From: Verrucomicrobiota bacterium
Lineage (GTDB): Bacteria; Verrucomicrobiota; Verrucomicrobiia; Limisphaerales; AAA164-E04
Length of the DNA: 32,738 bases
NCBI GenBank assembly: GCA_023257935.1
Contig: JALRAZ010000117.1
Coordinates: forward strand, 1-32,738
Direction: 5' to 3'
The notes beneath the pieces were generated by a model. That model was not told the DNA's origin. It did no database searches and saw only the letters and a list, made by a program, of their open reading frames with translations. This document shows, in pieces, positions 1,717 to 31,943 of the stretch (positions within the stretch are counted from its first letter, which is position 1; every line of letters begins with the position of its first letter). Position numbers and translations under genes: made by a program.

Positions 1717-2376
1717 TCAATAAAGACGTCTGGGGACATCAATGATGTCTCTTGGGTAGACCTGAGGGTCGAAGCGGCTATCGCGCCGGGCCTTCTCATA
1801 GTCGAAATAGAATTTAGTCCCGTTAGCTCGAGTGATCCCAATCTTTCGCTTTTTGGCAAAATCGGTAAGGCCACCCGCTTGAGAGATGGCTTCCACCGCT
1901 GTGGTTTCGCCCACGTATGGATAGCGACCCGGTTGAATGACTTCTCCGTTGAGCGTAAACAAGCGATCCTCCGTTCCCACCGTGATGGAAATGGTGGTGA
2001 AAATTTTTGGCACATAGGCTTCATGCAGTCGTGACTGAAGCTGAGGTGGGGTCAAACCGGATGCCTGAATCGGCTGACTAAGATAGGGCGGATGCAGGGT
2101 ACCATCCTCGCGGACGCGCTCCTCATGAATGGGAGGGGGGCTTGGAATACCGGCAAAAATAATGGTGACCTTCTCCCCAACCGACAATTCCATGCCCGTT
2201 GCGCTGGCCTCTCCTGCGGGAAAACCGCTGGGATCCACTTCCGTGGGTAGGGTTTCACATCCCGATCCCAACCATCCCATCAATAGGACACCAAGACACC
2301 CAGTCCATCCAATGGGACGCCTTTTCCCAAGAAACAAGCTCATGAAACGATTCACTAAATTACGCATACTGATCAA
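1717..2376 (-). CDS. Polysaccharide export lipoprotein, Wza-like
   Basis: 219 residues from TTG 2376; ATG 2367 is an equally good start. A signal peptide ends in a lipobox (LGSGC), predicting an outer-membrane or periplasmic lipoprotein. Residues about 65-125 match the polysaccharide export domain (ELSVGEKVTIIF, then RVREDGTLHPPYL and LTPPQLQSRL). Residues about 140-190 form one SLBB domain (LFTLNGEVIQPGRYPYVGET, then AISQAGGLTDFA). It is shorter than E. coli Wza (about 380 aa), having one SLBB domain and no C-terminal pore helix, which is usual for the compact class found beside Wzz/kinase fusions. The TTG start overlaps the kinase stop by 4 nt (TTGA), so translation is probably coupled. Role: periplasmic or outer-membrane conduit for exopolysaccharide. 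Confidence 0.88.
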   Translation of the reverse strand: MISMRNLVNRFMSLFLGKRRPIGWTGCLGVLLMGWLGSGCETLPTEVDPSGFPAGEASATGMELSVGEKVTIIFAGIPSPPPIHEERVREDGTLHPPYLSQPIQASGLTPPQLQSRLHEAYVPKIFTTISITVGTEDRLFTLNGEVIQPGRYPYVGETTAVEAISQAGGLTDFAKKRKIGITRANGTKFYFDYEKARRDSRFDPQVYPRDIIDVPRRLY

Positions 2377-4559
2377 AATTTGTTTTTCAACCCCAAATCT
2401 CCCTTGGTTTGGCCCTTAGCCGAGTCTGAACCCGATTTAGATCCCTTTTTCTTAGACTCCTCACCATCCTGCTTGGAGTAGTAGTCGTAGTAATAGCCAC
2501 TGTAATAATAGTAGTAGGAATCTTGAGAGATATTGATGTTGTTAAGGACAACGCCCAACAAATTACCACCGACTTTTTCAACCATTTGCTTGGCTCGTAT
2601 GGTCATAGCCTGTGGATACTTACGATACTGAATAACCAGCACGGCCATATCCACTTCACTCGCCAAGATGGAGGCATCACTCACCCCCATGATAGGAGGC
2701 GAGTCAAAGAACACGTAATCATAGCGCTTCTTGACATCCTGGATAAAGTCCTTCATTTGCTGGGAGTTAAGGATCCCCATCGAACTGCTGGGTAATTTGC
2801 CACTAGGCATGAAGTGCAAGGTATCCAATTTAGTGGTCTGAATCACTTCCTCCGCAGTTTTTTGACCGAGCAGGAAATCAGTCAAGCCCACCGCGTTGGA
2901 AACACCCACCAACTTGTGAAGACTTGGACGTCTTAAGTCAGAATCAATGATCAGCACTCTTGCATCGTTTTGAGCAAAAATGGTTGCCAGGTTAAAAATA
3001 GTGGTCGACTTTCCTTCACCAGCTCCACCGCTGACAACTGTCATCGTGTTGAAAGAAGAATCTTTCCTTGAAAAGAGTATGTTGGTTCGCAAGACACGAT
3101 AGGCCTCCGCATGAGGGCTATCAGGTCCTTCCAACATGAGTGATTGTACATTTTGAGGAATCACACCCAGAACGGGTGCCTCCAGAGCCTGCTCGACATC
3201 ATCAATCGTCTTAACACTTGTATCCAGGTATTCAATAAAGAATGCCAAGCCAACACCTGCAATCAAACCCACCAACACGCCGAGTGCCAAATTGAGCAGT
3301 TTCTTGGGCCTGACAGGCTCGTCATTGGGCTCGGCCCGATCATAAATCTCCACGATAGACTCGGTCGGCAAAGCGGCGTCGACTGTTTCCTGCAAAATGC
3401 GAATCATGATCATGTCACTGATCTTGGAGAGATTTTCCAAATCTCGCTTGGCAGTGAAATAGGGGCGATACTTCGCGGTTTTCTCCGCATCATTGGCTTT
3501 CGCATTCTCCACAGCCTCACTTAACTCGTTCAGCTCGTTCTGGGCAGCATTAACTTGGCTTTGGAGCCCGCGCAGAACACCCGTGATTTCGCTAGTGACC
3601 TGAACTTCAATTTCGCCCAACAACTGGGCGATGGATTTCATCTGAGGATGCTCCTGGCCATGGATGGCCTTAAGCTGAGCGAAAGATTGTCGAGCTTTGT
3701 CGTACTCGTTCAGCAAACTGGTCAGCCTTAGATTGCCTGGCATGGCCGTAAGAATGGTATTCTTCAGCTGCTCTAGAGTCATCGCTTCCAGCTCATTGAA
3801 CAGGGTTTGGAAACGTATCAGTTTGGCCTCGGCAACGGTACGCTCTTGTTCAAGTCGCAGCACAATCTGAGGTTCCGTCGTCATGCCTATCGAGCTGCCC
3901 TCAGCACTGTAGATGTCAGAAATATTCAGTTCCTCACGCAAGGCATCCAACTCTGCCTGCTTCAACTTAACCTTTTCATTTTGGTCGGCATATTGCGCCT
4001 TAAGGGCGTCGATGCCTGCATTGGCCATGCTCTTGAGGTTGGATTCACGAACCGATTTATATTGCTCAGCTATCTCTTGAGCAATGGATGCCGCTTCATC
4101 CTTGTCTTGGCTGTAAGCTGTGATTTCGATGAGACTCGTGTTTCGATACTGATCCACCTCAATGGTTTTTTTCAACACATCAAAGGCTTCTGTCAGGCTC
4201 AGTGGCTGCTTGAGATTGTAGCGCTCCATCCATTTATTGCGCAGTTCCAATGACTCAATCACCGGGTGCAGCACCACCTTGGACTGTATTTTTTCGAATT
4301 CAGTGAGGACCCAATAGGGATCGTGCTGCTGGGACATCTGCATCCCAATGAGTGGGGTGATGTCGGCACTATCCTTCTCAATGGCAATCCTGACAGAACT
4401 GGAGTAGGTGGGTTTGAGGATGTAGGTCACCAGCGCGGTGGTCAGGACGACCAGAAGAAAAACCGCTAGAATGACCGTCTTGCGGATACGTATGATGCGC
4501 CAATAATCAAGGAAATGCAGTTTGGAATCGGACTGCTGCGGATTGGGTTTGTTCTGCAT
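2373..4559 (-). CDS. Polysaccharide co-polymerase / BY-type tyrosine autokinase (Wzz-Wzc fusion)
   Basis: 728 residues from ATG 4559; a TTG 12 codons upstream is less likely. An N-terminal Wzz domain has a membrane helix at about 28-48. A long periplasmic coiled-coil region follows (about 175-370), then a second helix at about 424-443. The cytoplasmic kinase has Walker A GGAGEGKST (about 511-519), Walker A' VLIIDSDLRRPS and Walker B YDYVFFDSPP. A C-terminal tyrosine cluster has ten Tyr within 13 residues, followed by a Lys/Ser-rich tail. These are hallmarks of bacterial BY-kinases that autophosphorylate on the Tyr tail and control polymer length and export. Its own start follows a terminator hairpin. 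It is joined by TTGA to the Wza-like gene and through that to the FHA gene. The untidy, charged tail after the Tyr cluster is longer than in Wzc. Confidence 0.93.
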   Translation of the reverse strand: MQNKPNPQQSDSKLHFLDYWRIIRIRKTVILAVFLLVVLTTALVTYILKPTYSSSVRIAIEKDSADITPLIGMQMSQQHDPYWVLTEFEKIQSKVVLHPVIESLELRNKWMERYNLKQPLSLTEAFDVLKKTIEVDQYRNTSLIEITAYSQDKDEAASIAQEIAEQYKSVRESNLKSMANAGIDALKAQYADQNEKVKLKQAELDALREELNISDIYSAEGSSIGMTTEPQIVLRLEQERTVAEAKLIRFQTLFNELEAMTLEQLKNTILTAMPGNLRLTSLLNEYDKARQSFAQLKAIHGQEHPQMKSIAQLLGEIEVQVTSEITGVLRGLQSQVNAAQNELNELSEAVENAKANDAEKTAKYRPYFTAKRDLENLSKISDMIMIRILQETVDAALPTESIVEIYDRAEPNDEPVRPKKLLNLALGVLVGLIAGVGLAFFIEYLDTSVKTIDDVEQALEAPVLGVIPQNVQSLMLEGPDSPHAEAYRVLRTNILFSRKDSSFNTMTVVSGGAGEGKSTTIFNLATIFAQNDARVLIIDSDLRRPSLHKLVGVSNAVGLTDFLLGQKTAEEVIQTTKLDTLHFMPSGKLPSSSMGILNSQQMKDFIQDVKKRYDYVFFDSPPIMGVSDASILASEVDMAVLVIQYRKYPQAMTIRAKQMVEKVGGNLLGVVLNNINISQDSYYYYYSGYYYDYYSKQDGEESKKKGSKSGSDSAKGQTKGDLGLKNKF

Positions 4560-4605
4560 GGACAGTTGGACAACCGAAAAGGGATTTTTGATCAAAAGAT
4601 GAAAA

Positions 4606-4642
4606 CGGGGAGGCTAGAATGAAATAAGTTCCAGCCTCCCCG
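4606..4642 (-). terminator. Rho-independent terminator after the beta-barrel gene
   Basis: Perfect 10-bp inverted repeat: CGGGGAGGCT at 4606-4615 and its complement at 4633-4642, with a 17-nt loop. On the minus strand the stem is followed by TTTTCATCTTTT. It lies 25 nt past the stop of the outer-membrane protein and 46 nt before the kinase ATG, so it separates the two units or limits read-through into the kinase operon. Confidence 0.8.
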
Positions 4643-4666
4643 ATTCACATGAAGTAAACGCAAGGA

Positions 4667-5920
4667 CTAGTAGCTAGCCTTCAAGCCGATGTAGACCCGA
4701 TTACGATCAAAGCTACGTCCAAGATCAGAACTCAGATCGTCAAAGTTGTAGCCAGTCTCGGCCTGTAGATACTGGTTGATAGTATAGGCCAGGTTGGCGC
4801 CTAAACTCAGGTAATCATCTGAAGGGCTGCCAGGTAGGCTGTCACCGAAGGAACTCATCGCATACATACCGACAAGGTTAGCCGTCAGTTTGGCAGTCAA
4901 CTGATGCGTCAAGCTGGCGTAGATGGATGTGGTTTCCTGATCAAGAATCAGTGTCTGCAGGAAATAGGGGATATCTGTTTGATTCCTTTCGTGCCTCAAG
5001 CCAACGGAAAGATTACTTCCTTTGGCATAGGCATAGGAGAGATTGGCGTCGATGTAAGGACTTACGGTAGAATCGTCAGCCACATTGGCATTGTCGTAGG
5101 TGGTAAACTGAGCACCTGCTCTGAGGGAAGTTGAGAGCTCAGGGCTGAACGCGTGATCGATTCCTGCATAGACGTAGTGCGAATCGCTGTTTCGCACATC
5201 TGAGGGGCTACCTCCGGGCTGCAACAAGTCATCGCTTGTGTAATCGACGATTCGATACTGGTAGCCCACCAGCGCACTAGTAGCAGGCCTTAGTTGTGTG
5301 CGAAGATTGGCAGAGAGTCGGTGTTCAACACGATCGAGCAAGGCAGAGAAACTTCCATCGCCATCGGCGTCGTAATTGATCAAGTCGTTTTTGTAGCCGC
5401 CAACTAGGCTCAAGGTATCACTAAGTTGGGCGGTTAGGCTCAGATTGGCGGAGTTACGAAGGGCGTCGGAGTCAGCTCTAAGGGCCCTAAAACGAGTCGC
5501 GCCAGTAGGATCAATCACCTCCGGCTCTTGAGCGATCACAAACTGATCAGTGAGACTCAACGACAGATTCTGATTGATATCGTGGTTGATACCGAGGTTG
5601 AAACTGTGGTTGTGATCTGAGTTGTCTGGATCACGATCGTCAAACCATCTCAGTGTGTATTGATAACCTGCATTGAGTAGGGTTTGTTCCTTGACCAAGT
5701 TGTAGTTAAGGCTTGGGGAAAGCTCGAAACCAAAGCTGTCAGGAGACGACCCCACGGCGCTGGGCAATGTGAGGATGTTATCATCGTAGAAGCCCCGAAG
5801 ATTAGCTTTGATACTCCACGGTTTGGACGACTCGATGCGGCTGAGACCATCGCCAGCGGCAGCGTGCAGGCCAACAGCTCCTAGAGCGGCCAAACCAGCA
5901 GCAGATACAATCTTTTTCAT
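4667..5920 (-). CDS. Outer-membrane beta-barrel protein of EPS locus
   Basis: 417 residues with a clear signal peptide (MKKIVSAAGLAALGAVGLHAAAG). The remainder is made of amphipathic strands of 8-12 residues separated by polar Asp/Asn/Ser-rich turns, ending in an aromatic residue (YIGLKASY), the usual BAM recognition signal. The strand pattern and position beside Wzz/kinase and Wza genes match the BBP2-type barrels found in exopolysaccharide loci, including those tied to exosortase systems. Likely role: outer-membrane channel or scaffold for polymer secretion. It has its own sigma70-like promoter and a strong terminator, so it can be expressed separately from the kinase operon. Not an enzyme as far as I can see (no catalytic motif noticed). 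Confidence 0.82.
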   Translation of the reverse strand: MKKIVSAAGLAALGAVGLHAAAGDGLSRIESSKPWSIKANLRGFYDDNILTLPSAVGSSPDSFGFELSPSLNYNLVKEQTLLNAGYQYTLRWFDDRDPDNSDHNHSFNLGINHDINQNLSLSLTDQFVIAQEPEVIDPTGATRFRALRADSDALRNSANLSLTAQLSDTLSLVGGYKNDLINYDADGDGSFSALLDRVEHRLSANLRTQLRPATSALVGYQYRIVDYTSDDLLQPGGSPSDVRNSDSHYVYAGIDHAFSPELSTSLRAGAQFTTYDNANVADDSTVSPYIDANLSYAYAKGSNLSVGLRHERNQTDIPYFLQTLILDQETTSIYASLTHQLTAKLTANLVGMYAMSSFGDSLPGSPSDDYLSLGANLAYTINQYLQAETGYNFDDLSSDLGRSFDRNRVYIGLKASY

Positions 5921-7953: not shown

Positions 7954-9363
7954 TCAGTATAGGTTGTATTTGGACATTTTCCGGTGAAGGGTCCGCCGGC
8001 TCATCCCCATGAGCCGGGCCGCCTCCGTTCGGTTTCCGCGGGTCGCCTTGAGCGCTTCAATCATGAGCTGCTTCTCGTTTTCCTGCAGGGAAAAGCCGCT
8101 CAGAGAACCGCCCGCCTCTTTGCTTGAGGAGGCCTGGGCATGGGCTGAAAAAAGCAAATGGCCGCCATCTTCGGGCCTGGCCGCCGAAGGGCTAGCTCTC
8201 AATGGAGATGGCAGGTCAGAAAGATCGACTTTCCTGCCGCGAGCAAAGACCACACCATGTTCGACTGCAGCCCGCAATTCGCGCACGTTGCCTGGCCATG
8301 GATAACGAATCAAGCCCTCAAGTGCCTCCTTGGAAAACTCGCTGACCTGCTTGCGATTTTGTTCTGCAAACTCCGCGAGAAAACCCACTGCAAGAGCCGG
8401 GATATCGGTCGCTCTTTGCCTGAGTGGGGGCAGGTTGATTTCGACCACCCGGAGACGATAATAGAGGTCCTCGCGAAATTTCCCCTCGGCCATTAGTTTT
8501 GGAAGATCCTTGTTGGTTGCCGCCAGCAAACGCACGTCAACATGCATGGTCTTGGTGGAACCCACCCGCTCGAAGGAGCGCTCCCCAAGAATACGAAGGA
8601 GCTTGATTTGAGTGGACGGATCAATTTCTCCGATTTCATCTAGGAAAAGGGTCCCACCATCGGCTTTTTCAAACCGCCCGATACGCCGCTCATGAGCTCC
8701 AGTAAAAGCCCCCTTTTCATGACCGAAAAGTTCGCTCTCAAGCAGGGTGGGCGATAGGCCCGCGCAGTGAACGGTCACCATGGGGTGGTGCGATCGGTGG
8801 CTGGATTGATGGATAGCCTTGGCAATCAGCTCCTTGCCTGTGCCGCTTTCTCCCAATACAAGCACGGTCGCGTTGGTCGGAGCCACTTGCTCAACCATAT
8901 CAAATACCTGCCGCATGGCCGGTGACTCCCCCACAATGCTGGAGGTCTTGAAACGCTTGCCCAGTTGCTGGCGAAGCACGACATTTTCCTCCTCGAGTCG
9001 GCGCAGCTTAAGAGAACGCTGGATTTTCTTTTCCAGGTCTTCGATGAGCATGCTGCCCTTGGGAAGATAATCGTCTGCACCTTCCTTCATGGCCTGCACA
9101 GCGGTCTCTTCCGATCCGAAGGCTGTCATCAGGATGCACACTGGGGGTTGAGCCAGGCTCTTGGCTCGCTTGATGAGTTTGAGCCCATCTTCTCCAGGCA
9201 TGCGAAAATCCGTTAGGAGCACATCAAAGGACTCTGCTTCGAGTAACTCGATTGCCGAGGTAGCACTATCGGCGATATAAACTTCGTAGTGATCCTCGAG
9301 GACAGCCCGCAAGCCTTCCCGTTGCGTTTTCTCATCGTCGACAATCAGCAGAAGAGGTTTCAT
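7954..9363 (-). CDS. NtrC-family sigma54 response regulator
   Basis: 469 residues. The receiver domain (1-120) has acidic pocket D9 D10, phospho-acceptor D52 (LLTDFRMPGEDG), T80 and K102. The AAA+ domain (about 143-375) has Walker A GESGTGKE (171-178) and the sigma54-contact loop GAFTGA (218-223), followed by the Walker B region GGTLFLDEIGE. The C-terminal Fis-type helix-turn-helix is at about 426-469 (NRTEAARLMGMSRRTLHRKM). All signature residues are intact, so it should be a phosphorylation-dependent activator of sigma54 promoters. The cognate kinase gene lies just upstream with a small ORF between. Downstream are the glycosyltransferase and EPS genes, the likely targets, as with PrsK/PrsR-type regulators of exosortase/EPS loci (an analogy, not shown here). 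Confidence 0.95.
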   Translation of the reverse strand: MKPLLLIVDDEKTQREGLRAVLEDHYEVYIADSATSAIELLEAESFDVLLTDFRMPGEDGLKLIKRAKSLAQPPVCILMTAFGSEETAVQAMKEGADDYLPKGSMLIEDLEKKIQRSLKLRRLEEENVVLRQQLGKRFKTSSIVGESPAMRQVFDMVEQVAPTNATVLVLGESGTGKELIAKAIHQSSHRSHHPMVTVHCAGLSPTLLESELFGHEKGAFTGAHERRIGRFEKADGGTLFLDEIGEIDPSTQIKLLRILGERSFERVGSTKTMHVDVRLLAATNKDLPKLMAEGKFREDLYYRLRVVEINLPPLRQRATDIPALAVGFLAEFAEQNRKQVSEFSKEALEGLIRYPWPGNVRELRAAVEHGVVFARGRKVDLSDLPSPLRASPSAARPEDGGHLLFSAHAQASSSKEAGGSLSGFSLQENEKQLMIEALKATRGNRTEAARLMGMSRRTLHRKMSKYNLY

Positions 9364-9377
9364 GAGTGGCCGTATGA

Positions 9378-9650
9378 CTATCGCAGGGATGACAGAGAAT
9401 CTTGGCTGGTCATCGACGAGCCAGGGTTTTGACTGGAGGTCATCTCCCGTTTTCTCATGAGATGAGCTTGATGGGCCATAAAACGCTTGTCGGTGGCAGG
9501 ACTATCCAATGGATGTAGCCATGCCTGCTGAGTGCAATCGGCACCCCTAGCAAGCAATGTGACCGAAACCTTTCTTCTAAGCAAGGCCGGGGAACTGGCT
9601 ACGGACGTGTCAGAGCCCTCTCCCGCTATCCATTTTGTAGCAAAAATCAT
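9378..9650 (-). CDS. Small hypothetical protein between kinase and regulator
   Basis: 90 residues. Its ATG at 9650 overlaps the histidine-kinase TGA (ATGA), and its stop lies 14 nt before the response-regulator ATG, so it exactly fills the gap. The sequence is hydrophilic with basic and Ser-rich stretches, no membrane helix and a serine-rich end (SSQNPGSSMTSQDSLSSLR). I recognise no domain. The coupled start and tight packing support translation. The low-complexity composition leaves open a non-coding spacer that happens to be open. Confidence 0.5.
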   Translation of the reverse strand: MIFATKWIAGEGSDTSVASSPALLRRKVSVTLLARGADCTQQAWLHPLDSPATDKRFMAHQAHLMRKREMTSSQNPGSSMTSQDSLSSLR

Positions 9651-10909
9651 GATGGACCGAGCAGCTTTTCCTGTTGCTCAAAAAGAGGCAACCAGAGCCT
9701 GAATATGGTGCCACTGGGCTGATTGGGCTCGACCATGATGCGCCCCCCGTGATCGCGAATAATGCGGTGAACAATCATCAGCCCAAGCCCAGTCCCCTTG
9801 CGCTTGGTAGTATAGTAGGGTTCAAAAATACGGCTGATTCGATCTTTGGAAATGCCCATGCCGTTGTCTTCTACCGACAACCAAACACCGTCGGCATCTC
9901 GCTTGGTGCGAATCCTCAGCAGGCCATCCTTGTCCATGGCCTGCATGGCATTTTTAATCAAGTTAACCAATACTTGCTTGATCTGTGCACGATCCAAGGG
10001 TGGGTCAGGTAGCTGTTCATCGAGCTCTTCAACCAATTCGATACCGCGATTGGCCAGTTCGGGCCTGAGCAATTCAATGGTTTCGATCACAATGGCATTA
10101 AGGTGGTCGGGCTTGCGGTCAGGAATGGTCGGCCGCATAGCCTGCAAAAACTGTGTGATAATCAATTCCAGGCGGTTGATTTCGCCCCTTGAAACCGACA
10201 CAAATTCCTCAAGCCGCTCTAGCGATTGCTCCATGTTCAGCGCACCCACCTCGGCTTCCAAATTCTTGGGCGGCCTGCCTCGACCTCGCTTGCCGAGCTG
10301 ACGCTGTTGAGTCATCATGTCTCGAATCTTGGCAGTCTCCCTGCCAATCAGTTGAAGGTGAATGTGCAAAGCGTTGAGCGGATTGCCAATCTCGTGAGCC
10401 ACACTGCTGGCCAGAAGGGTCAAAGTGTGTACCCGCTCTGACTCAATGGCTTCTACTGTTTTTTTCCTGGATTCGGTGACGTCATGAAGAACCAGCACAT
10501 AGCCTGTGTTTTCCTGATTCTGTTGCTGTATCGCAGCCCCATAAAGCCTAAGAAAACATGTCTTGGGGTAGGTCAGGGCATACTCCAGCCTCACCATGCT
10601 AGGGGCTGCTTCATGGCTCATTGAGTCGACGAAATGGTCCCAATTGAAGGCGGGAATGAGTTGATGCACCGAACGCTGTTCCATGGGCTCCTTGCCCGAG
10701 CTTAAAAGGTCCCGCGCTGCCTGATTGCAGTATTGGATCCTACCCTTAGGATTGACCACAAGGATGCCATCCTCGATGACATTGAAGACCGTTTCAAAGA
10801 GCTGCCGTTGCTCCTCTAGCCGCTGCACCACATTCTGGATTCCCTCGGTGTCAAGCCGATCAATGCGACCGAGAATCTTATCAAGGAAGCTGGAATTAAA
10901 ACTCGCCAT
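9647..10909 (-). CDS. PAS-domain sensor histidine kinase (NtrB-like, soluble)
   Basis: 420 residues from ATG 10909; an in-frame TTG at 10936 is possible. No membrane segment, so a cytoplasmic sensor. A short coiled coil (about 20-38) leads into a PAS domain at about 38-145 (FNVIEDGILVVNPKGRIQYCNQ). The dimerisation/phospho-acceptor domain has H172 in SSVAHEIGNPLNAL. The ATPase domain has N-box NLIKNAMQAM, G1 VEDNGMGIS, F-box FEPYYTTK and G2 KGTGLGL. Between the two helices of the phospho-acceptor domain there is an insertion with a basic AT-hook-like motif (KRGRGRPPK, about 207-215). The stop overlaps the next small ORF (ATGA). Likely partner: the NtrC-class regulator downstream. The signal is unknown. 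Confidence 0.93.
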   Translation of the reverse strand: MASFNSSFLDKILGRIDRLDTEGIQNVVQRLEEQRQLFETVFNVIEDGILVVNPKGRIQYCNQAARDLLSSGKEPMEQRSVHQLIPAFNWDHFVDSMSHEAAPSMVRLEYALTYPKTCFLRLYGAAIQQQNQENTGYVLVLHDVTESRKKTVEAIESERVHTLTLLASSVAHEIGNPLNALHIHLQLIGRETAKIRDMMTQQRQLGKRGRGRPPKNLEAEVGALNMEQSLERLEEFVSVSRGEINRLELIITQFLQAMRPTIPDRKPDHLNAIVIETIELLRPELANRGIELVEELDEQLPDPPLDRAQIKQVLVNLIKNAMQAMDKDGLLRIRTKRDADGVWLSVEDNGMGISKDRISRIFEPYYTTKRKGTGLGLMIVHRIIRDHGGRIMVEPNQPSGTIFRLWLPLFEQQEKLLGPS

Positions 10910-10942
10910 CTTATGCTCAGCCACCGGCAACACCAAGGCTGC

Positions 10943-20515: not shown

Positions 20516-21130
20516 ATGATGGGTGGTTCTTTTCAACTCAAACGCGCGACGGTGGAAGAATTACCAGCTTTAAGATGGCTCTGGCAACGGGCCAACCTCT
20601 CCACTGTCGCACTCGAGCGAGACCTGACTGACTTTTATTTACTACTGGATGAGGACTTCACCCTCCTGGCCGCCATGGGCGTCCATGTTGAATCTCAAGA
20701 AGCATGGCTGCATCACCTACATTTCAGCCATGATCCTCACGACCCTGAGCTGTTTGGGCAGTTCTGGGAGCGATTGCGATTGTTGCTCATCAATCGTGGG
20801 ATTCAAAGGGCTTGGACCAGGCAATGGCCGGCAGCATGGCGTCAAGAGGGATTCACCGATCCAAGCAGCAGGGAATCCTTGCATGCACCGCGCCGTGCTC
20901 AACCCGACCAACCTGGCCTTTTGGTCCGATCCATGCGAGATGCCCGAACTGCGCAATTGATTGAAAAAAAAGTCGCCGAACTCAGTGCTTTAAGGGAAGT
21001 CTCAGACCGCCACATGGCTCAGCAGACTCAGCGGATTCGACGCATCGCCTACACCATATCGGCGGTATTTATCTCACTGCTGGTCTATCTCACCCTTAGA
21101 GGTATTCTCACCCTGCCTCGCTGGCGTTGA
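20516..21130 (+). CDS. GNAT-like protein with C-terminal membrane anchor
   Basis: 204 residues. The N-terminal 110 residues begin FQLKRATVEELPALRWLWQR, the pattern of a GNAT acetyltransferase first strand and helix, and continue with a strand-rich segment (FTLLAAMGVHVESQ, then WLHHLHFS). The usual acetyl-CoA loop (RxxGxG/A) is not evident, so the domain may be degenerate or non-enzymatic. Residues about 140-170 form a helical coiled-coil-like stretch. A membrane helix near 178-196 (YTISAVFISLLVYLTLRGIL) ends the protein, placing the domain in the cytoplasm. The 3' end overlaps the convergent lipA gene by 23 nt. Function unknown. Confidence 0.65.
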   Translation: MMGGSFQLKRATVEELPALRWLWQRANLSTVALERDLTDFYLLLDEDFTLLAAMGVHVESQEAWLHHLHFSHDPHDPELFGQFWERLRLLLINRGIQRAWTRQWPAAWRQEGFTDPSSRESLHAPRRAQPDQPGLLVRSMRDARTAQLIEKKVAELSALREVSDRHMAQQTQRIRRIAYTISAVFISLLVYLTLRGILTLPRWR

Positions 21131-22010: not shown

Positions 22011-22271
22011 TTATCCATCGAAGCCATGGCTGGCCCACCAAGGTTCCAATTCATCGATACCAAAATCAGCCAACACTTGGCCATTGACCTCAATGGTGGG
22101 AGTCATGCTCTTTCCGGTGAGTTGCTGGAGTTCCTCCATCGCGGCAGGGTTGGAGAGAACCTCCAGTTCCTCGAATGCCAGTCCGCGATGCCTGAGCCAA
22201 TCCAATGCCTCATGGCACCAGCCACAGTAAGATTTGGTAAAAAGGCGTATGTTCAGCCTGTTTGAGTTCAT
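22011..22271 (-). CDS. Glutaredoxin-like protein
   Basis: 86 residues, a thioredoxin fold with the active site CGWC after RLFTKSY, and the cis-proline segment SMTPTIEVNGQVLADFG. The dithiol motif suggests a disulfide-reducing glutaredoxin, close to the NrdH/GrxC size class. The ATG overlaps the cupin stop (ATGA) and the stop abuts the lipA ATG, making a tight three-gene unit. It probably keeps a thiol partner, possibly LipA or an Fe-S assembly step, reduced; this is inferred from position. Confidence 0.88.
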   Translation of the reverse strand: MNSNRLNIRLFTKSYCGWCHEALDWLRHRGLAFEELEVLSNPAAMEELQQLTGKSMTPTIEVNGQVLADFGIDELEPWWASHGFDG

Positions 22272-22687
22272 GCTTGATTGGGGTGTTCGGTGATCACCGT
22301 ATCATCATGCTCATAGCATGGAGCACAGCAACATAGCAACCTCATTGACCCCGGTCCGTGGTTCCAGAGCTTATGGCGCTTTCCTGGAGGAATACCGATC
22401 GCATCGCCAGCCCTGATCTCCCGGGTGACCTCTCCCACCTTCATGCGCCCCTGCCCCTCTAGGATGAAATAGATCTCCTCTGCCTGAGGATGATAATGCT
22501 CGTCGGTACTACCCCCTGATGGCAGCGTCGCCTCTGCCAAACTCTGATTCCTTATCTCAGCATTGCGGTAGGCAAGCAGTTCGCGGATTTGAGAGCCATC
22601 CTTGGTCGTGAAAGGGGACACCTGATCAACATTGACAACGTCCATGGGCTGAGCATGCACACCCTTTCGGAAAATGAACATCCCCAT
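22268..22687 (-). CDS. Cupin-domain protein
   Basis: 139 residues from ATG 22687; ATG 22681 and ATG 22645 are in frame. A single cupin barrel has the metal motif STDEHYHPQAEEIYFILEGQG and, about 20 residues on, a second motif GDAIGIPPGKRHKLWNHG. It could bind a divalent metal through two His, a Glu and a later His. The C-terminus carries a Cys-rich stretch (LLCCCAPCYEHDD) seen in this cupin group. Substrate unknown. It is the first gene of a coupled cupin-glutaredoxin-lipA unit, transcribed away from the HTH operon. Confidence 0.85.
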   Translation of the reverse strand: MGMFIFRKGVHAQPMDVVNVDQVSPFTTKDGSQIRELLAYRNAEIRNQSLAEATLPSGGSTDEHYHPQAEEIYFILEGQGRMKVGEVTREIRAGDAIGIPPGKRHKLWNHGPGSMRLLCCCAPCYEHDDTVITEHPNQA

Positions 22688-22710: not shown

Positions 22711-22728
22711 ATTTACTTTTTGGTAAAT
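22711..22728. promoter_or_regulatory. Inverted repeat, possible operator
   Basis: ATTTAC (22711-22716) and GTAAAT (22723-22728) with a 6-nt centre. It lies downstream of the predicted minus-strand (cupin) start and upstream of the plus-strand -10. The left arm GATTTAC recurs at 22761-22767. Confidence 0.35.
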
Positions 22729-22732
22729 TTTA

Positions 22733-22817
22733 TTAGGATTAACCATTTTATAATGGATTGGATTTACATTTAGGTTAATTTTGCATTGAAAAATCAGCCC
22801 TCCTAATTTAGGTTGAC
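22733..22817. promoter_or_regulatory. Divergent promoter region with three TTAGG repeats and overlapping -10 boxes
   Basis: TTAGGATTA (22733), TTAGGTTAA (22770) and TTAGGTTGA (22808) are direct repeats spaced 37 and 38 nt. A perfect TATAAT at 22749-22754 (plus) sits in the palindrome CCATT-TTAT-AATGG (22743-22756), whose other strand reads TATAAA, so both divergent genes may share one -10 region. ATTAACC (22738-22744) and GGTTAAT (22773-22779) form a further inverted repeat, and CCTAATTTAGG (22802-22812) is a near-palindrome. The interval is markedly AT-rich compared with its neighbours. Confidence 0.5.
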
Positions 22818-22823
22818 GTTGTT

Positions 22824-24125
22824 TTGAGTGAGACTTTTGCAACTTTATTGGCCGAAATGACAGGTGAGGTCTCCGGCATCGCCCTTGCCGAACTCTTGGG
22901 CAAGTCCAGGCCTTACGTGGCGCAGTTGCGCAAGGGCAAGCGCTTACCAACCGACGAGGATCTGGTGTTGCTGGCCCGACGCTTTGGCCCAGATAGGCTC
23001 CAGGAAATGATGTTGCTGGCTTATCACGACCGCCTGGAAAAAAAACTGTTCCAAGACGATGGCTGCCGTCAAAGCGCACAGAGAGCAGTGAGGGCATTGC
23101 TGGGGCGAGCCGGCGCTACCTCGGTAGCTCCAGCGGGTAAGCGAACCTTCGAAACATTCCCCGGACATTTTGAACCTTTGGTCATCATCACCGGAGACAA
23201 GCGAGAAACCCGTGGAAGGCATATCGGGGTCGGCGATTTTGGGGTTCACGCCACAACCACCGCAGACAGTCGATGGATAATGAGCCTCGGGCTTGGGACT
23301 GAGGTCGAACACGTCATCGACAAGGATTTCGTGCTACTGGAAGAAGAAGAGCTCATCCATCGTTACGCTCAAAAGAATTTGCTCGTCATTGGTAGCCCGG
23401 CTGTGAACCACCTAGCCAGACGTATCAACCGCTCATCCATCTTTCGCTTCAACATCAATCACGAAGTGGACGAGGGCCTGGAGGCCATCATCAATCAGGC
23501 CCGCATCAAGTCTCGGTCCAAAGACGAATTGGCTCTATTCTTTCAAGATTCACAGGAAGATCTGACCAAACTGATGCGCTATTTGTTTGTGGGAGGCATC
23601 ATCGATCCAACCTACCCGACGGGTGATTACATCACCTCAACCTATCACAGCATGCCAGGCAATGTGGACCTCGATTTCGGAGTCCTTTCCTTTGCCGCCA
23701 ATCCATTTTATGAAGCCCAATGCCGTGCCGAAGGGAGAGTCAACGACCATGCTTTCGTTTCTATTTTCGCTGCTGGCATCCACCACCCCGCCACCGCTCA
23801 TGCCATCCGTCAGCTTGGTAGCCATGGTCGTAGTAAGCATGTGTTCAGCAATCATCCTTATGGCGGGGTCTTCCGGGTTGAACTGGACCTGAATCAGGCC
23901 TTCTTTTCGGACAGGGTCAGAGAGGGCCTTTTTCAATGGGAAGATGATGCTGACGATCAGAGAGGCTCAATTGAAGACCAAGGAGGCCTGCTGGCTAGCG
24001 AACTGGAATACATGGAAAACGAGCGTCGCTTGGAGAACCTCAATACCCTGCAAATTAGACCAGATCAGGCGGCTGCAGCCAAAGATCTGCTGCACCACCT
24101 TAACCTTGGAGTTTTGGGATCATGA
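22824..24125 (+). CDS. XRE-type HTH protein with uncharacterised sensor-like region
   Basis: 433 residues from TTG 22824 (ATG 22857 would cut the first HTH helix). Residues about 3-60 form a helix-turn-helix (GIALAELLGKSRPYVAQLRKGKRLP). After a linker, about 115-215 looks like a Rossmann-type lobe (LVIITGD, then NLLVIGSPAVNHLARRIN at 185-202). Residues about 265-355 form a second lobe with DLDFGVLSFAANPF, VSIFAAGIHHPATAHAI and HPYGGVFRVELD. From memory the pattern of a GxPxxN segment followed by DxG, NPF and AGxHxxxT recurs in uncharacterised bacterial proteins, but I cannot name the family. A ligand-sensing role is inferred. The TGA overlaps the kinase ATG (ATGA), so it is coupled to sugar-nucleotide genes. 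An acidic tail (about 370-405) precedes the end. Confidence 0.75.
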   Translation: MSETFATLLAEMTGEVSGIALAELLGKSRPYVAQLRKGKRLPTDEDLVLLARRFGPDRLQEMMLLAYHDRLEKKLFQDDGCRQSAQRAVRALLGRAGATSVAPAGKRTFETFPGHFEPLVIITGDKRETRGRHIGVGDFGVHATTTADSRWIMSLGLGTEVEHVIDKDFVLLEEEELIHRYAQKNLLVIGSPAVNHLARRINRSSIFRFNINHEVDEGLEAIINQARIKSRSKDELALFFQDSQEDLTKLMRYLFVGGIIDPTYPTGDYITSTYHSMPGNVDLDFGVLSFAANPFYEAQCRAEGRVNDHAFVSIFAAGIHHPATAHAIRQLGSHGRSKHVFSNHPYGGVFRVELDLNQAFFSDRVREGLFQWEDDADDQRGSIEDQGGLLASELEYMENERRLENLNTLQIRPDQAAAAKDLLHHLNLGVLGS

Positions 24126-25156
24126 GGAAGCGGCACATCAAGACCCATGCTTATCCCCGGGTGGGCCTGGTAGGCAATCCAAGCGACGGCTATCATGGTC
24201 GCACCATTGCTTTCACATTCAGGAATTTCAAGGCAGAGATCCTTCTGGGAGAGGACAGCAGTCGCATCAGTTTTGTCAACCGCGAGTCCAATTTCGATTC
24301 GGTCAGTGATCTCTGTTCCCATATCAGGCTTCACGGCTACTATGGGGGCATCCGACTCCTCAAAGCCGCTATCAAGCGCTTTCACGATTACTGCCTGGAA
24401 GCATCCATTCCGGCGGACTTCGAAAAAAAATTCAAGGTCACCTATAGCTCCAACATCCCTCAGCAAGTCGGGCTGGCTGGATCCAGCGCCATCATCACAG
24501 CCACCTTTCGCGCCTTGATGGCCTTTTATGAAGTCTCCATTGCTCCAGAGGTTTTGCCCAACCTGATCAGAGAAGTAGAAACCCAGGAGCTTGCCATCCC
24601 AGCGGGCCTTCAGGACCGAGTCGTGCAAGTCTACGATTGCCTGGTCTACATGGATTTTAATCAGGAGTACATGGCAACCCATGGACATGGCCTTTATGAA
24701 CCCATCAACCTGGCAGGAGAATGGCCTCCCTTCTACATTGCGTGGCGGGCGGACAGCTCCGAGGGCACCGAAGTGTCCCACAATCGTCTGCGCTACAAAT
24801 ATGATGAGGGCGATCAGGCCGCTCACGATGCCATGCGATTCTGGGCAGATCTGACAGTCAAGGCCAAGGAGGCACTTCTGGAAGGGGATCACGATACACT
24901 CTTTGACTGCATCAACCAAAATTTTGACCGCCGACGAAGCCTGTATGAGACCCTGCGTATCCGGATGAAACCCGAGCACCTCGAGATGGTCACGCTGGCA
25001 CGCGAGTGCGGAGCAAGCGCCAAGTTCGCTGGATCCGGCGGTGCCATTGTGGGAACCTATCGCCATCAAAAAGATTTCAAGCGACTTCGCGATCATCTGC
25101 TTCAAAAGGGCATTCACGTGATTCAGCCTCTTTTCAAGGAGGAACCTCAACTTTGA
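24122..25156 (+). CDS. GHMP kinase, glucuronokinase-like
   Basis: 344 residues. GHMP motifs: substrate-binding VGLVGNPSDGYHGRT (14-28), ATP-binding PQQVGLAGSSAI (113-124) and the late GASAKFAGSGGAIVG (297-311). D165 in AGLQDRVVQVY is the probable catalytic base. The NPSDGYHGR start is characteristic of the plant-type glucuronokinase branch, which makes glucuronate-1-phosphate from glucuronate. Other sugars (such as galacturonate or L-arabinose) cannot be excluded. The product would feed the nucleotidyltransferase encoded next, to give a UDP-sugar. The start overlaps the HTH gene by ATGA and the stop overlaps the next gene by TTGA. A long antisense open frame covers the gene and is a shadow. 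Confidence 0.85.
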   Translation: MRKRHIKTHAYPRVGLVGNPSDGYHGRTIAFTFRNFKAEILLGEDSSRISFVNRESNFDSVSDLCSHIRLHGYYGGIRLLKAAIKRFHDYCLEASIPADFEKKFKVTYSSNIPQQVGLAGSSAIITATFRALMAFYEVSIAPEVLPNLIREVETQELAIPAGLQDRVVQVYDCLVYMDFNQEYMATHGHGLYEPINLAGEWPPFYIAWRADSSEGTEVSHNRLRYKYDEGDQAAHDAMRFWADLTVKAKEALLEGDHDTLFDCINQNFDRRRSLYETLRIRMKPEHLEMVTLARECGASAKFAGSGGAIVGTYRHQKDFKRLRDHLLQKGIHVIQPLFKEEPQL

Positions 25157-26055
25157 TACGCAAGGCCATCATCCCAGCTGCAGGCTACGGCACCCGATTC
25201 CTGCCCGCTTCCAAGGCAATCCCCAAGGAGCTGATCCCGGTGGTAGACAAACCCACCATTCAGTATGTCGTTGAGGAAGCCGTGGCTGCGGGAATCAACG
25301 AAATCCTGATCATTATCAGTCGGGGCAAAGAAGCCATCTGCTCTCACTTCAATCCCGATCCCGTCTTGGAGGATTTGCTCCGCCAAAAAGGCAGAGAAAG
25401 CTCGCTAGAGACCCTGAAGAGCCTGCAGGAAAAGGCCCAGATTCACTTTATCTACCAGGAGGAAATGAAAGGCCTTGGAGATGCTGTCCTATGCGCTCGG
25501 GACTTTGCCGGACAGGAAACAGTAGCGATCTTACTAGGAGATACCATCCTTCACCATGCCTCGCCCCCTTCTCCTCTGGAGGGTATGATGGAGGTCCATC
25601 GCAACCGAGGAGGCTCAGTCATCGCGGTTCGCCGAGTCCCCAGGCAGCGAGTCAGTCAATATGGTGTGATCTCAGGCCAGCCCATCGACCCACGGCTGAC
25701 ACGCATTCAAGGTATGGTTGAAAAACCCAAACCAGAGGAAGCACCCAGCCTACTGGCGGTGTCAGCTCGTTACCTGGTCACACCCCAGCTTTTCGAATGC
25801 TTGGCCGATACCTTGCCCGGAGTGGGTGGCGAAATCCAGATCACCGATGCCCTGGATCAACTCTGCCGTCGCGAAGTGGTCTATGGCTACGAATTTGATG
25901 GCATCAGGCTGGATATAGGCAACCAGCTAGAATACATCAAAAGCAACTTAATGCTTGGGCTGCACGAGCCCGCGATGCGTGAGGCACTCCTGCAATTCAT
26001 GGCCGAACAGGTATCCATTCATGGATCGGCAAACCCTGCCGCCTCAGAAGGCTAG
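25153..26055 (+). CDS. galU: UTP-sugar-1-phosphate uridylyltransferase, GalU-type
   Basis: 300 residues from TTG 25153, whose TTGA overlaps the kinase stop; homology begins at that codon (LIRKAIIPAAGYGTRFLPAS). Nucleotidyltransferase motifs: PAAGYGTRFLPASKAIPKELIPVVDKP, VAILLGDTIL (metal-binding Asp), a MVEKPKPEEAPS segment and GGEIQITDAL. The family transfers UMP from UTP to glucose-1-phosphate. Here the coupled glucuronokinase-like gene suggests it may use glucuronate-1-phosphate or have broad specificity. The tail ends with a Ser/Ala-rich extension. Its 3' end overlaps convergent hrpB by 4 nt. The symbol is assigned by family, not by demonstrated substrate. Confidence 0.9.
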   Translation: MIRKAIIPAAGYGTRFLPASKAIPKELIPVVDKPTIQYVVEEAVAAGINEILIIISRGKEAICSHFNPDPVLEDLLRQKGRESSLETLKSLQEKAQIHFIYQEEMKGLGDAVLCARDFAGQETVAILLGDTILHHASPPSPLEGMMEVHRNRGGSVIAVRRVPRQRVSQYGVISGQPIDPRLTRIQGMVEKPKPEEAPSLLAVSARYLVTPQLFECLADTLPGVGGEIQITDALDQLCRREVVYGYEFDGIRLDIGNQLEYIKSNLMLGLHEPAMREALLQFMAEQVSIHGSANPAASEG

Positions 26056-29148: not shown

Positions 29149-30306
29149 ATGGACAAAGTGCGCATAGGCATAGCCGGCATGGGCAACATGGGCCAATACC
29201 ATGCCAATTACCTAATGAAGGGGGAAGTCGCTAGGGCGGAACTGACGGCCGTCTGCAGCACCTCACCTCACAAGCTGACATCCTATGAGGACAAGGTTCA
29301 GATTTTCAGCGACGCCGAAGCCATGATCCGTAGCGGCTCCATTGATGCCATCCTGATCGCTACACCCCATTACCAGCATACCTCACTGGGCATAGCAGCG
29401 ATCGAGCAGGGCATCCACTTGATGGTGGAAAAGCCCATTTCCGCCCACAAGGCGGATGCCGAACGATTGATAGCTGTTGCCGAAAAACATCCGGAAATCA
29501 TTTTTGGAGGCATGTTTCAACTCCGTACCGAGCCTCGATACCTCAAGCTCAAGCAATTGATTGCATCGGGTGAACTGGGTGAGATTGTTCGCATGAACTG
29601 GATCATCACTGACTGGTATCGCACTGAAGCTTACTATGCCTCGGGTGGCTGGCGTGCCACCTGGAAAGGCGAGGGCGGCGGGGTCCTGCTCAACCAGTGC
29701 CTCCATCAACTCGATGCCCTGCAATGGATGATTGGTATGCCAAAACGAGTCCGAGGCTTTGCCCAGCTAGGAAGATTTCACGACATTGAAGTGGAGGACA
29801 ATGTCACCGCCTATTTGGAATACCCCAACGGCGCTACTGGAGTATTCATCTCCTCCACGGGTGAGGCACCAGGAAGCAATCGCCTGGAGTTAGCGGGCAC
29901 TCGGGGTAAAGTGGTGCTTGAGAATGACAGGATTGCCTTTACCCGAAACGAATCCTGCATGCTGGAGCACAGCAGAACCTCTTCCATCGGCTTTTCAAAA
30001 CCTGAGGTCTGGGATGTCACCATTCCTTTTGGCAACGCCACCCTCCCCCATGCCATCCTGATGCGGAATTTTGTTGAGGCCATCCTTGATGGTAGCCCGC
30101 TCATTGCCCCCGGTAAGGAGGGCATCCACTCGGTGGAACTGGCGAATGTCCTGCTTTATTCCTCTCTGGTTGATCAATCCATCGACATGCCCATGGATAG
30201 CAAGGCCTTCGAGGACAAACTCCAGCAGCTCATCGCCAATTCAACTCATGAAAAGAAAGTGGTTGAAATCTCGGGTGAGGACTTTGCTAGCTCCTTCAAC
30301 CGCTGA
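29149..30306 (+). CDS. Gfo/Idh/MocA-family NAD(P)-dependent oxidoreductase
   Basis: 385 residues. The N-terminal Rossmann fold has the nucleotide loop GIAGMGNMGQYHA (8-20), and ATPHYQHTSLGIAAIEQG is followed by the conserved catalytic EKP (VEKPISAHK). The C-terminal alpha/beta domain carries GGGVLLNQCLHQLDALQWM, matching the family GG.h..xxHxxD region where the His/Asp bind sugar. Enzymes of this family oxidise or reduce sugars, inositols and similar compounds; the exact substrate is not predictable. It is cytoplasmic, with no signal peptide. Downstream are a Uma2-like gene (121-nt gap) and a sugar isomerase, suggesting a small catabolic unit. Confidence 0.93.
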   Translation: MDKVRIGIAGMGNMGQYHANYLMKGEVARAELTAVCSTSPHKLTSYEDKVQIFSDAEAMIRSGSIDAILIATPHYQHTSLGIAAIEQGIHLMVEKPISAHKADAERLIAVAEKHPEIIFGGMFQLRTEPRYLKLKQLIASGELGEIVRMNWIITDWYRTEAYYASGGWRATWKGEGGGVLLNQCLHQLDALQWMIGMPKRVRGFAQLGRFHDIEVEDNVTAYLEYPNGATGVFISSTGEAPGSNRLELAGTRGKVVLENDRIAFTRNESCMLEHSRTSSIGFSKPEVWDVTIPFGNATLPHAILMRNFVEAILDGSPLIAPGKEGIHSVELANVLLYSSLVDQSIDMPMDSKAFEDKLQQLIANSTHEKKVVEISGEDFASSFNR

Positions 30307-30427
30307 AAACAGGTTGGTTGGCACAGGCAACCACATCACTGCCGCACAAAAGATACTGAATTTGACTCGATTATGCCCGCGGCACGCTGCCATGATGAGA
30401 TCTATCGATTAGACAGCTAGAATCCCT

Positions 30428-31051
30428 ATGACTCCTGACCTAAAAACCAAAATGTCTGCCGAGGAATTTGTCGCTATGGAACGACACACCGGTCTTCGAG
30501 CTGAATGGCTCGATGGAGGTGTCTACGCGATTGCTGGCGGCTCCCATCTGCATTGGCTTCTGGCAACCAATATCGCCGGCGAATTGCGGCATCGACTCAA
30601 AAACAGCGAGAGTCATGTACTCAATAGCGGTATGCGTTTGAAAGTGGCTACCACAAGTCTTTATGCCCACCCTGATGTCACCATCGTGCAGGGGGCAGCG
30701 GCATTTGAAGATGGGAATCAGGATACACTACTGAATCCAAAAGTCCTCATCGAAGTGCTTTCCGATCAGACAGCGGCTTGGGATCGAGGCGGCAAGTTTT
30801 GGCACTACCGCCAACTGGAATCACTTTCAGACTACATCCTTGTCTCACAGGAGACGAGATTGGCCGATCATTACACCCGGCAACCCAATGGTTCCTGGAT
30901 GCTCAAGACTGTCGAAGGAGAGGACGGCATCATTCAGCTCACATCCATCAAGACTCAACTACCTCTGGTTGAGGTTTACGCCAATACCAAGGTGCCTCAC
31001 AACCAGGCACCTGCCGCCAACAAACCCCATCATCCTCAGGTTAAGGCCTGA
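30428..31051 (+). CDS. Uma2-family (DUF820) restriction-endonuclease-fold protein
   Basis: 207 residues. The Uma2 pattern is clear: MSAEEFVAMERHTGLRAEWLDG at the N-terminus, AGGSHLHWLLATNIAGELRHRL, a PD-(D/E)xK core of HPDVTIV (Asp), VLIEVLSDQT (Glu) and WDRGGKFWHYRQLESLSDYILV (Lys). This family is nuclease-like, common in Cyanobacteria and abundant as paralogues in some Planctomycetes and Verrucomicrobia; its role is unknown and often thought to involve mobile elements. Here it sits between two sugar-metabolism genes, 16 nt before the isomerase. The C-terminal 20 residues are a low-complexity Pro/His/Lys tail. Confidence 0.88.
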   Translation: MTPDLKTKMSAEEFVAMERHTGLRAEWLDGGVYAIAGGSHLHWLLATNIAGELRHRLKNSESHVLNSGMRLKVATTSLYAHPDVTIVQGAAAFEDGNQDTLLNPKVLIEVLSDQTAAWDRGGKFWHYRQLESLSDYILVSQETRLADHYTRQPNGSWMLKTVEGEDGIIQLTSIKTQLPLVEVYANTKVPHNQAPAANKPHHPQVKA

Positions 31052-31067
31052 AAACCCACAAATATCC

Positions 31068-31943
31068 ATGATTTTTACCGGCATTACCGACGAAGCAGGT
31101 GCCCATATCGACACCCAAATCAAAGCAGTCAAGGAATTGGGCTGGGAAACAATCGAAGCCAGATCAGTTGAAGTAACCGGCTTTCCCAAAGCCAACCTAC
31201 ACGATATCCCTGATGCAGCCTTTGATGTGGTTGAAGAAAAGCTCAAGGATGCAGGAGTCGGTGTTTACTGCTTTGGCTCCACCATTGCCAACTGGGGTAA
31301 GCGTATCGATGATCCCTTCGATCTCTCAGAAGTCGAGCGTGCCATTCCCAGAATGCAGCGTCTTGGCACCCAATATGTGCGTATCATGAGCTATGCGGTC
31401 AGAGAGGGTGCCGATCAAATGGAAGCTGAACGCTTTCATCGGCTACGAGAGATCACCCGCCGATTTTTGGATGCCGGCCTGACACCGGTTCACGAAAACT
31501 GCATGAACTATGGCGGCATGAGCTGGCAGCATGCGCTCAAACTGCTGGAAAACGTACCAGGCTTGAAATGGGTTTTTGACACAGCCAATCCAGTCTTCAA
31601 CGACGATCGCAGCAAACCCGCCCCTCAACCAAAACAAGATCCTTGGGAATTCTGGACTCACTTGAAGGAGCATACGGTTCACATCCATGTCAAAGACGCC
31701 ATCTGGGATCCTGCCAAGAATGATGCGGACTACACCCTTCCTGGCAAGGGTGATGGAGCCGTTCGGCGCATCCTCACCGACGCCATCACATCAGGTTACG
31801 ATCAGGGGATTTCAATCGAACCCCATCTGGCCGTGGTTTTCCATGATGATTCAGTCAAAGCCAGCGATGAGGAGATCTACGAAAGTTTCGTGGATTACGG
31901 CAAGGCCCTGATGGCACTGGTTGAGTCCATCAAAGAAGGCTGA
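31068..31943 (+). CDS. Sugar phosphate isomerase/epimerase (xylose-isomerase-like TIM barrel)
   Basis: 291 residues from ATG 31068. The frame is open upstream, but homology starts at MIFTGITDEAGAHIDTQIKAVKELGW. An AP-endonuclease-2 type TIM barrel: LGWETIEARSVE, YVRIMSYAV, TPVHENCMNYGG (metal-binding Glu of HEN), KWVFDTANPV (Asp), TVHIHVKDAIW and a late SIEPHL (Glu). These are the metal ligands of sugar isomerases/epimerases such as the IolE/IolI and D-tagatose epimerase groups. The substrate is not determinable. The operon with the Gfo/Idh/MocA dehydrogenase suggests paired oxidation and epimerisation or dehydration of a sugar or inositol. Confidence 0.9.
   Translation: MIFTGITDEAGAHIDTQIKAVKELGWETIEARSVEVTGFPKANLHDIPDAAFDVVEEKLKDAGVGVYCFGSTIANWGKRIDDPFDLSEVERAIPRMQRLGTQYVRIMSYAVREGADQMEAERFHRLREITRRFLDAGLTPVHENCMNYGGMSWQHALKLLENVPGLKWVFDTANPVFNDDRSKPAPQPKQDPWEFWTHLKEHTVHIHVKDAIWDPAKNDADYTLPGKGDGAVRRILTDAITSGYDQGISIEPHLAVVFHDDSVKASDEEIYESFVDYGKALMALVESIKEG

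Follow-up and report, generated by a model that had tools for sequence, protein, structure and literature searches.

Organization of the locus

The window, a stretch of 32,738 nucleotides, is a contig of a marine Verrucomicrobium assembly (G000; 4.06 Mb, 94.6% complete). Relatives that bear a name, Pedosphaera sp. ARS72 and SCGC AAA164-E04 among them, are represented by MAGs and single-cell genomes. The window carries three tightly packed genes preceded by a short intergenic region that is common to a divergent cupin gene, with the following features.

22268..22687, minus strand: cupin gene, divergent, with the operator-bearing intergenic region in common; possible second target
22712..22727: O1, operator-like, perfect palindrome with 5-bp arms (TTTAC-N6-GTAAA), 16 bp, TTTACTTTTTGGTAAA
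22749..22754, plus strand: TATAAT, -10-like, between O1 and O2 (sequence)
22763..22778: O2, operator-like palindrome, 16 bp, 51 bp from O1, TTTACATTTAGGTTAA
22824..24125, plus strand: HTH433, 433-aa HTH protein, TTG start (ORF list, Pfam); HTH_3 at residues 20-55, variable linker at about 61-106, undescribed core at 107-410
24122..25156, plus strand: GHMP sugar kinase, 344 aa, glucuronokinase candidate, ATG start (Pfam, motifs)
25153..26055, plus strand: GalU-type UTP:sugar-1-phosphate uridylyltransferase, 300 aa, TTG start at 25153 (Pfam, NCBIfam)

The original prediction of three genes joined by ATGA and TTGA overlaps is borne out, coordinates included, by the open reading frames and the sequence: the 4-nt overlaps lie at the HTH433/kinase junction (ATGA, 24122-24125) and the kinase/GalU junction (TTGA, 25153-25156). 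The mechanical ORF of the GalU gene begins at 25006, upstream of the TTG start, and an AGGAGG is positioned ~10 nt 5' of that start. All five HTH433 copies are followed by the kinase and then GalU, with overlaps of 1 to 4 nt, and the three-gene architecture is thus not due to chance. The further suggestion that the products are needed in a fixed ratio or as a complex is not supported, as short overlaps are ordinary translational coupling and the kinase occurs without HTH433 outside the GTDB family.

The surrounding genes include a surface polysaccharide cluster (1717-5920; consecutive genes of the SLBB/Poly_export, Wzz-type AAA_31, and beta-barrel BBP2_2 kinds), beside which a sigma-54 response regulator and a PAS histidine kinase are encoded (7954-10936). 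A 204-aa protein (20516-21130) matches no family over cut-off and is fast evolving (35-51% identity) with conserved synteny. At the end of the operon, the 3' ends of GalU and a convergent HrpB-type helicase gene share 4 nt (26052-26055), an overlap that is absent from locus L002. Gfo/Idh/MocA dehydrogenase and AP_endonuc_2 TIM-barrel genes, whose position ahead of the kinase in two other genomes of the order hints at a larger sugar pathway, lie 3 kb downstream of the operon (29149-31943), and between them is a gene for a Uma2-family putative nuclease (30428-31051).

Distribution and domains of HTH433

Of the 11 genomes examined from its GTDB family, five, belonging to two genera, contain HTH433; outside that family it was found in no other genome among 146 searched in the order or 289 in the phylum, and a profile search of 388 phylum genomes gave no additional true homologue. 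Phylum-wide profile matches L010 and L011 cover the HTH region alone, judged by profile range, and L012 and L013 are unrelated proteins. Among 84,980 species genomes, a scan able to detect only close relatives returned three HTH433 loci, all in organisms already in the set, and none was found in viral contigs, phages, or plasmids. Within the family, HTH433 and the kinase are both present in five genomes and both missing from the other six, several of which are incomplete. The proposed linkage of HTH433 with both enzymes across genomes is full, and no homologue was found in another context. We note that the flanks are kept too, with LipA, glutaredoxin, and cupin genes on one side and the HrpB-type helicase gene on the other, so that this linkage is in part due to common descent of the whole region.

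The anticipated N-terminal HTH is a genuine HTH_3 domain (PF01381; 27.9 bits versus a cut-off of 23, E=2.4e-6 in Pfam), and structure prediction agrees: the first ~90 residues model well, with a pLDDT of 79-89 for the HTH domain (AF2), and its closest folds are the P22 c2 and DdrO repressors (Foldseek). The core at residues 107-410 has no credible match in Pfam, NCBIfam, PHROGs, PADLOC, or PDB sequences, and its pLDDT is mostly <50 in two AlphaFold predictions made from five close sequences. The two sensor-like lobes read into this part of the protein were an impression, as the searches recognize no domain there and the core lacks a usable model. An S_layer_C (PF05124)-like alpha/beta domain was considered and rejected, with a sub-cut-off E of 0.18 in one of five homologues and an hhalign probability of 1.6%; the corresponding motif order (IG..N / NPF / AG..T..A) is suggestive by eye and not significant. 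Natribaculum plasmid matches to the core (E=0.9) proved to be antisense of a 5-oxoprolinase-subunit-like gene.

The core is nonetheless the most conserved part of the operon, with 78-84% identity between the window and the other copies, versus 55-74% for the HTH, 68-81% for the kinase, and 57-67% for GalU. The motifs singled out earlier (GSPAVN, DFG..NPF, and AAGIHH) vary little or not at all across copies, and many H, D, R, E, and N residues are invariant as well and group into motif-like clusters. HTH433 is predicted to be a regulator of an undescribed family, with an undescribed core of ~300 residues.

This conservation raises the question of whether the core is itself a catalyst of the same pathway, making or consuming the free sugar, for example, with the HTH reporting pathway status. 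Such trigger enzymes are known in NadR and PutA, in which an HTH is joined to a large conserved domain within the operon of its own pathway. The identity of the core, above that of the HTH, the kinase, and GalU, its invariant residue clusters, and the cotranslation of HTH433 with two enzymes are consistent with this explanation, but it is unlikely, perhaps one chance in four, given that Pfam, NCBIfam, PHROGs, PADLOC, and PDB sequence searches recognize no catalytic domain and that multi-protein contacts can also give high core identity.

Operator-like sites and probable regulation of the operon

The gap 5' of HTH433 is 136 bp, and twin palindromic sites like those in it are present upstream of all four HTH433 copies, the window's included, for which upstream DNA is available, spaced by 51 bp in the window and by 51, 50, and 49 bp in three relatives. 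The palindrome arms covary, TTTAC/GTAAA being replaced by TTTGC/GCAAA or TTAAC/GTTAA. A consensus-free test for two palindromes 49-51 bp apart gave p=0.017, <0.0005, 0.0005, and 0.147 in the four regions, the last of these (L043) being weak by itself. Nine sequences totaling 130 kb contain the consensus twin pair nowhere but at the four HTH433 genes, the consensus having been derived from the same sequences as those tested. The exact palindrome is present once in G000, at the HTH433 operon, and three times in the sister genome G438, twice at the HTH433 operon and once within a coding frame; a reversed control pattern has 10 matches in G000 and two in G438. A promoter scan of the upstream region gave no full sigma-70 match and no good -35.

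In the window, as at L002 and L043, the intergenic region also lies 5' of the cupin gene, and the twin sites could thus belong to another regulator and serve the cupin gene, with HTH433 acting elsewhere or not binding there. We regard this as improbable, and more so than a catalytic core, as the twin sites accompany HTH433 and a scan of five kinase loci that lack it found none, the exact palindrome is not repeated elsewhere in the genome, as expected for a local regulator, and the TATAAT between the sites is on the operon strand.

Control of its operon by HTH433 is, as a prediction, well founded, because HTH433 is never seen without both enzymes, co-occurs with the kinase, and has conserved operator-like twin palindromes upstream; it is probably a dedicated autoregulator of its own operon. 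We favor, at roughly 60%, a self-regulated sugar-activation operon in which HTH433 dimers at the twin sites repress transcription, the core binds a pathway metabolite, and the kinase and GalU activate the sugar. HTH433 dimers would probably bind the two palindromes, which are about five DNA turns apart, through the N-terminal HTH, and the bound sites, bracketing the promoter, would repress the operon. The conserved core would bind a pathway metabolite, most likely the uronic acid, either free or as the 1-phosphate, or else the UDP-sugar, and DNA binding would change in response. With the operon on, the GHMP kinase would phosphorylate the sugar at C1, as is predicted at the family level, the leading candidate being glucuronic acid, and the kinase product would then be joined to UTP by the GalU-type enzyme. 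Several observations count against this reading: conservation is higher in the core than in the enzymes, which is unusual for a plain ligand sensor, the twin sites also precede the divergent cupin gene, the closest solved relative of GalU is a UDP-glucose enzyme, and PF03721 dehydrogenase genes occur in two HTH433-bearing g3 genomes.

Kinase, GalU-type enzyme, and a putative uronate salvage route

The kinase matches GHMP_kinases_N (E=5.6e-11) and GHMP_kinases_C (E=1.9e-5) over the Pfam cut-offs and has intact GNPSDGYHGRT, GLAGSSAI (P-loop-like GLxGSSA), and KFAGSGGA (C-terminal GSGG) motifs, which place it among the GHMP kinases. NCBIfam assigns it to no named bacterial family, with sub-cut-off matches to other kinases only, and the literature searched yielded nothing on a bacterial glucuronokinase. 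The kinase also occurs, without HTH433 nearby, in seven more genomes of the order (~47-58% identity). It adjoins a GalU-type gene in L038-L041, and directly or closely follows Gfo/Idh/MocA dehydrogenase and AP_endonuc_2 TIM-barrel genes in L036 (8362-11514) and L037 (1568-6287). We note that the GalU-type genes of L039-L041 are from a second, more distant subfamily (~36% identity) and overlap or abut the kinase start in the order opposite to that in the window.

The kinase could act on a sugar other than a uronate, with the sole GalU-type enzyme mainly making UDP-glucose. No named family fixes the kinase substrate, and the Gfo/Idh and AP_endonuc_2 genes preceding it in two other genomes suggest a wider sugar route. 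Against this, the kinase opening NPSDGY..T matches that of plant glucuronokinase, as a lead only, and no UDP-glucose dehydrogenase-type gene exceeds the cut-off in the genus. UDP-glucuronate is normally made by UDP-glucose dehydrogenase, and no PF03721 UDP-glucose/GDP-mannose dehydrogenase gene was found in G000, compared with 13 of 14 control genomes that have one; G438 has a sub-cut-off PF03721 match only. Three of four genomes of the operon-less genus g2 have two or three PF03721 genes. Since G000 is without a UDP-glucose dehydrogenase-type gene, it may obtain UDP-glucuronate solely through the kinase and GalU, although two HTH433-bearing g3 genomes also have PF03721 genes, and salvage is thus not always the only route.

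The GalU-type protein matches NTP_transferase (Pfam, E=1.5e-29) and scores 322.8 bits over the full TIGR01099 GalU model, whose equivalog cut-off is 326.8; it is the product of the sole full-length GalU-type gene in G000. Its closest solved relative is YngB, a proven UDP-glucose enzyme (PMC7961091), which argues for the other-sugar explanation; we consider that explanation possible, at somewhat longer odds than even. Using the UTP, Mg, and diphosphate residue list from the same paper, the YngB uridine contacts (A13, G14, K28, E29, Q105, and G110), Mg ligand Asp133, and diphosphate contact Lys192 all have matching residues in the GalU-type protein, as in a member of the family. The window has Thr in place of the proposed glucose contact Asp134 of YngB, and every kinase-linked copy has either Thr or Ser there, but the change is not diagnostic of glucuronate, because E. 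coli GalU has Val at the same position.

Uronate-to-UDP-sugar salvage is a plausible and the leading reading of the operon's function. The original prediction of an HTH protein controlling such a pathway is thus supported as to control, with the tie to the two enzymes and the upstream twin palindromes in its favor, and in part only as to uronate salvage, for which the GHMP kinase, its GalU-type neighbor, and the lack of the dehydrogenase in G000 speak. The ligand and the surface polysaccharide named there as destination are putative, though genes for polysaccharide export are present in the window. A bolder proposal, which we think doubtful, is that the core is a new type of domain that senses, or even acts as an enzyme on, a uronic acid or the activated form of one, and that HTH433 would be a single-target autoregulator, akin to a trigger enzyme, of a bacterial operon for glucuronate salvage that replaces UDP-glucose dehydrogenase. 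HTH433 offers an undescribed 300-residue domain with a ready assay, in the form of the twin operators and a small set of probable ligands, and a bacterium with the kinase and GalU and without UDP-glucose dehydrogenase would be a clean test of the salvage route.

HTH433 shares with the Xre/HTH_3 local autorepressors P22 c2 and DdrO an N-terminal HTH fold and palindromic sites around its own promoter, but has a 300-residue undescribed core in place of their usual short dimerization domain. The joining of an HTH to a large conserved domain is as in NadR and PutA, although the HTH433 core is without a recognized catalytic domain. For the enzymes, the closest parallel is zebrafish DrGKUP, a fusion of glucuronokinase and a putative UDP-glucuronate pyrophosphorylase that forms a glucuronate salvage pair, and whose pyrophosphorylase activity is very low (PMC3938481), so that the zebrafish work could not complete the test of the salvage route. 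Both systems combine a GHMP-type sugar-1-kinase with a short bacterial-type nucleotidyltransferase in the same proposed two-step salvage, and bacteria and archaea are described as having stand-alone pyrophosphorylases only (PMC3938481). In contrast to the DrGKUP fusion, the operon in the window has separate cotranslated genes, with the kinase, whose uronate substrate is putative, before the pyrophosphorylase, and a regulator in addition.
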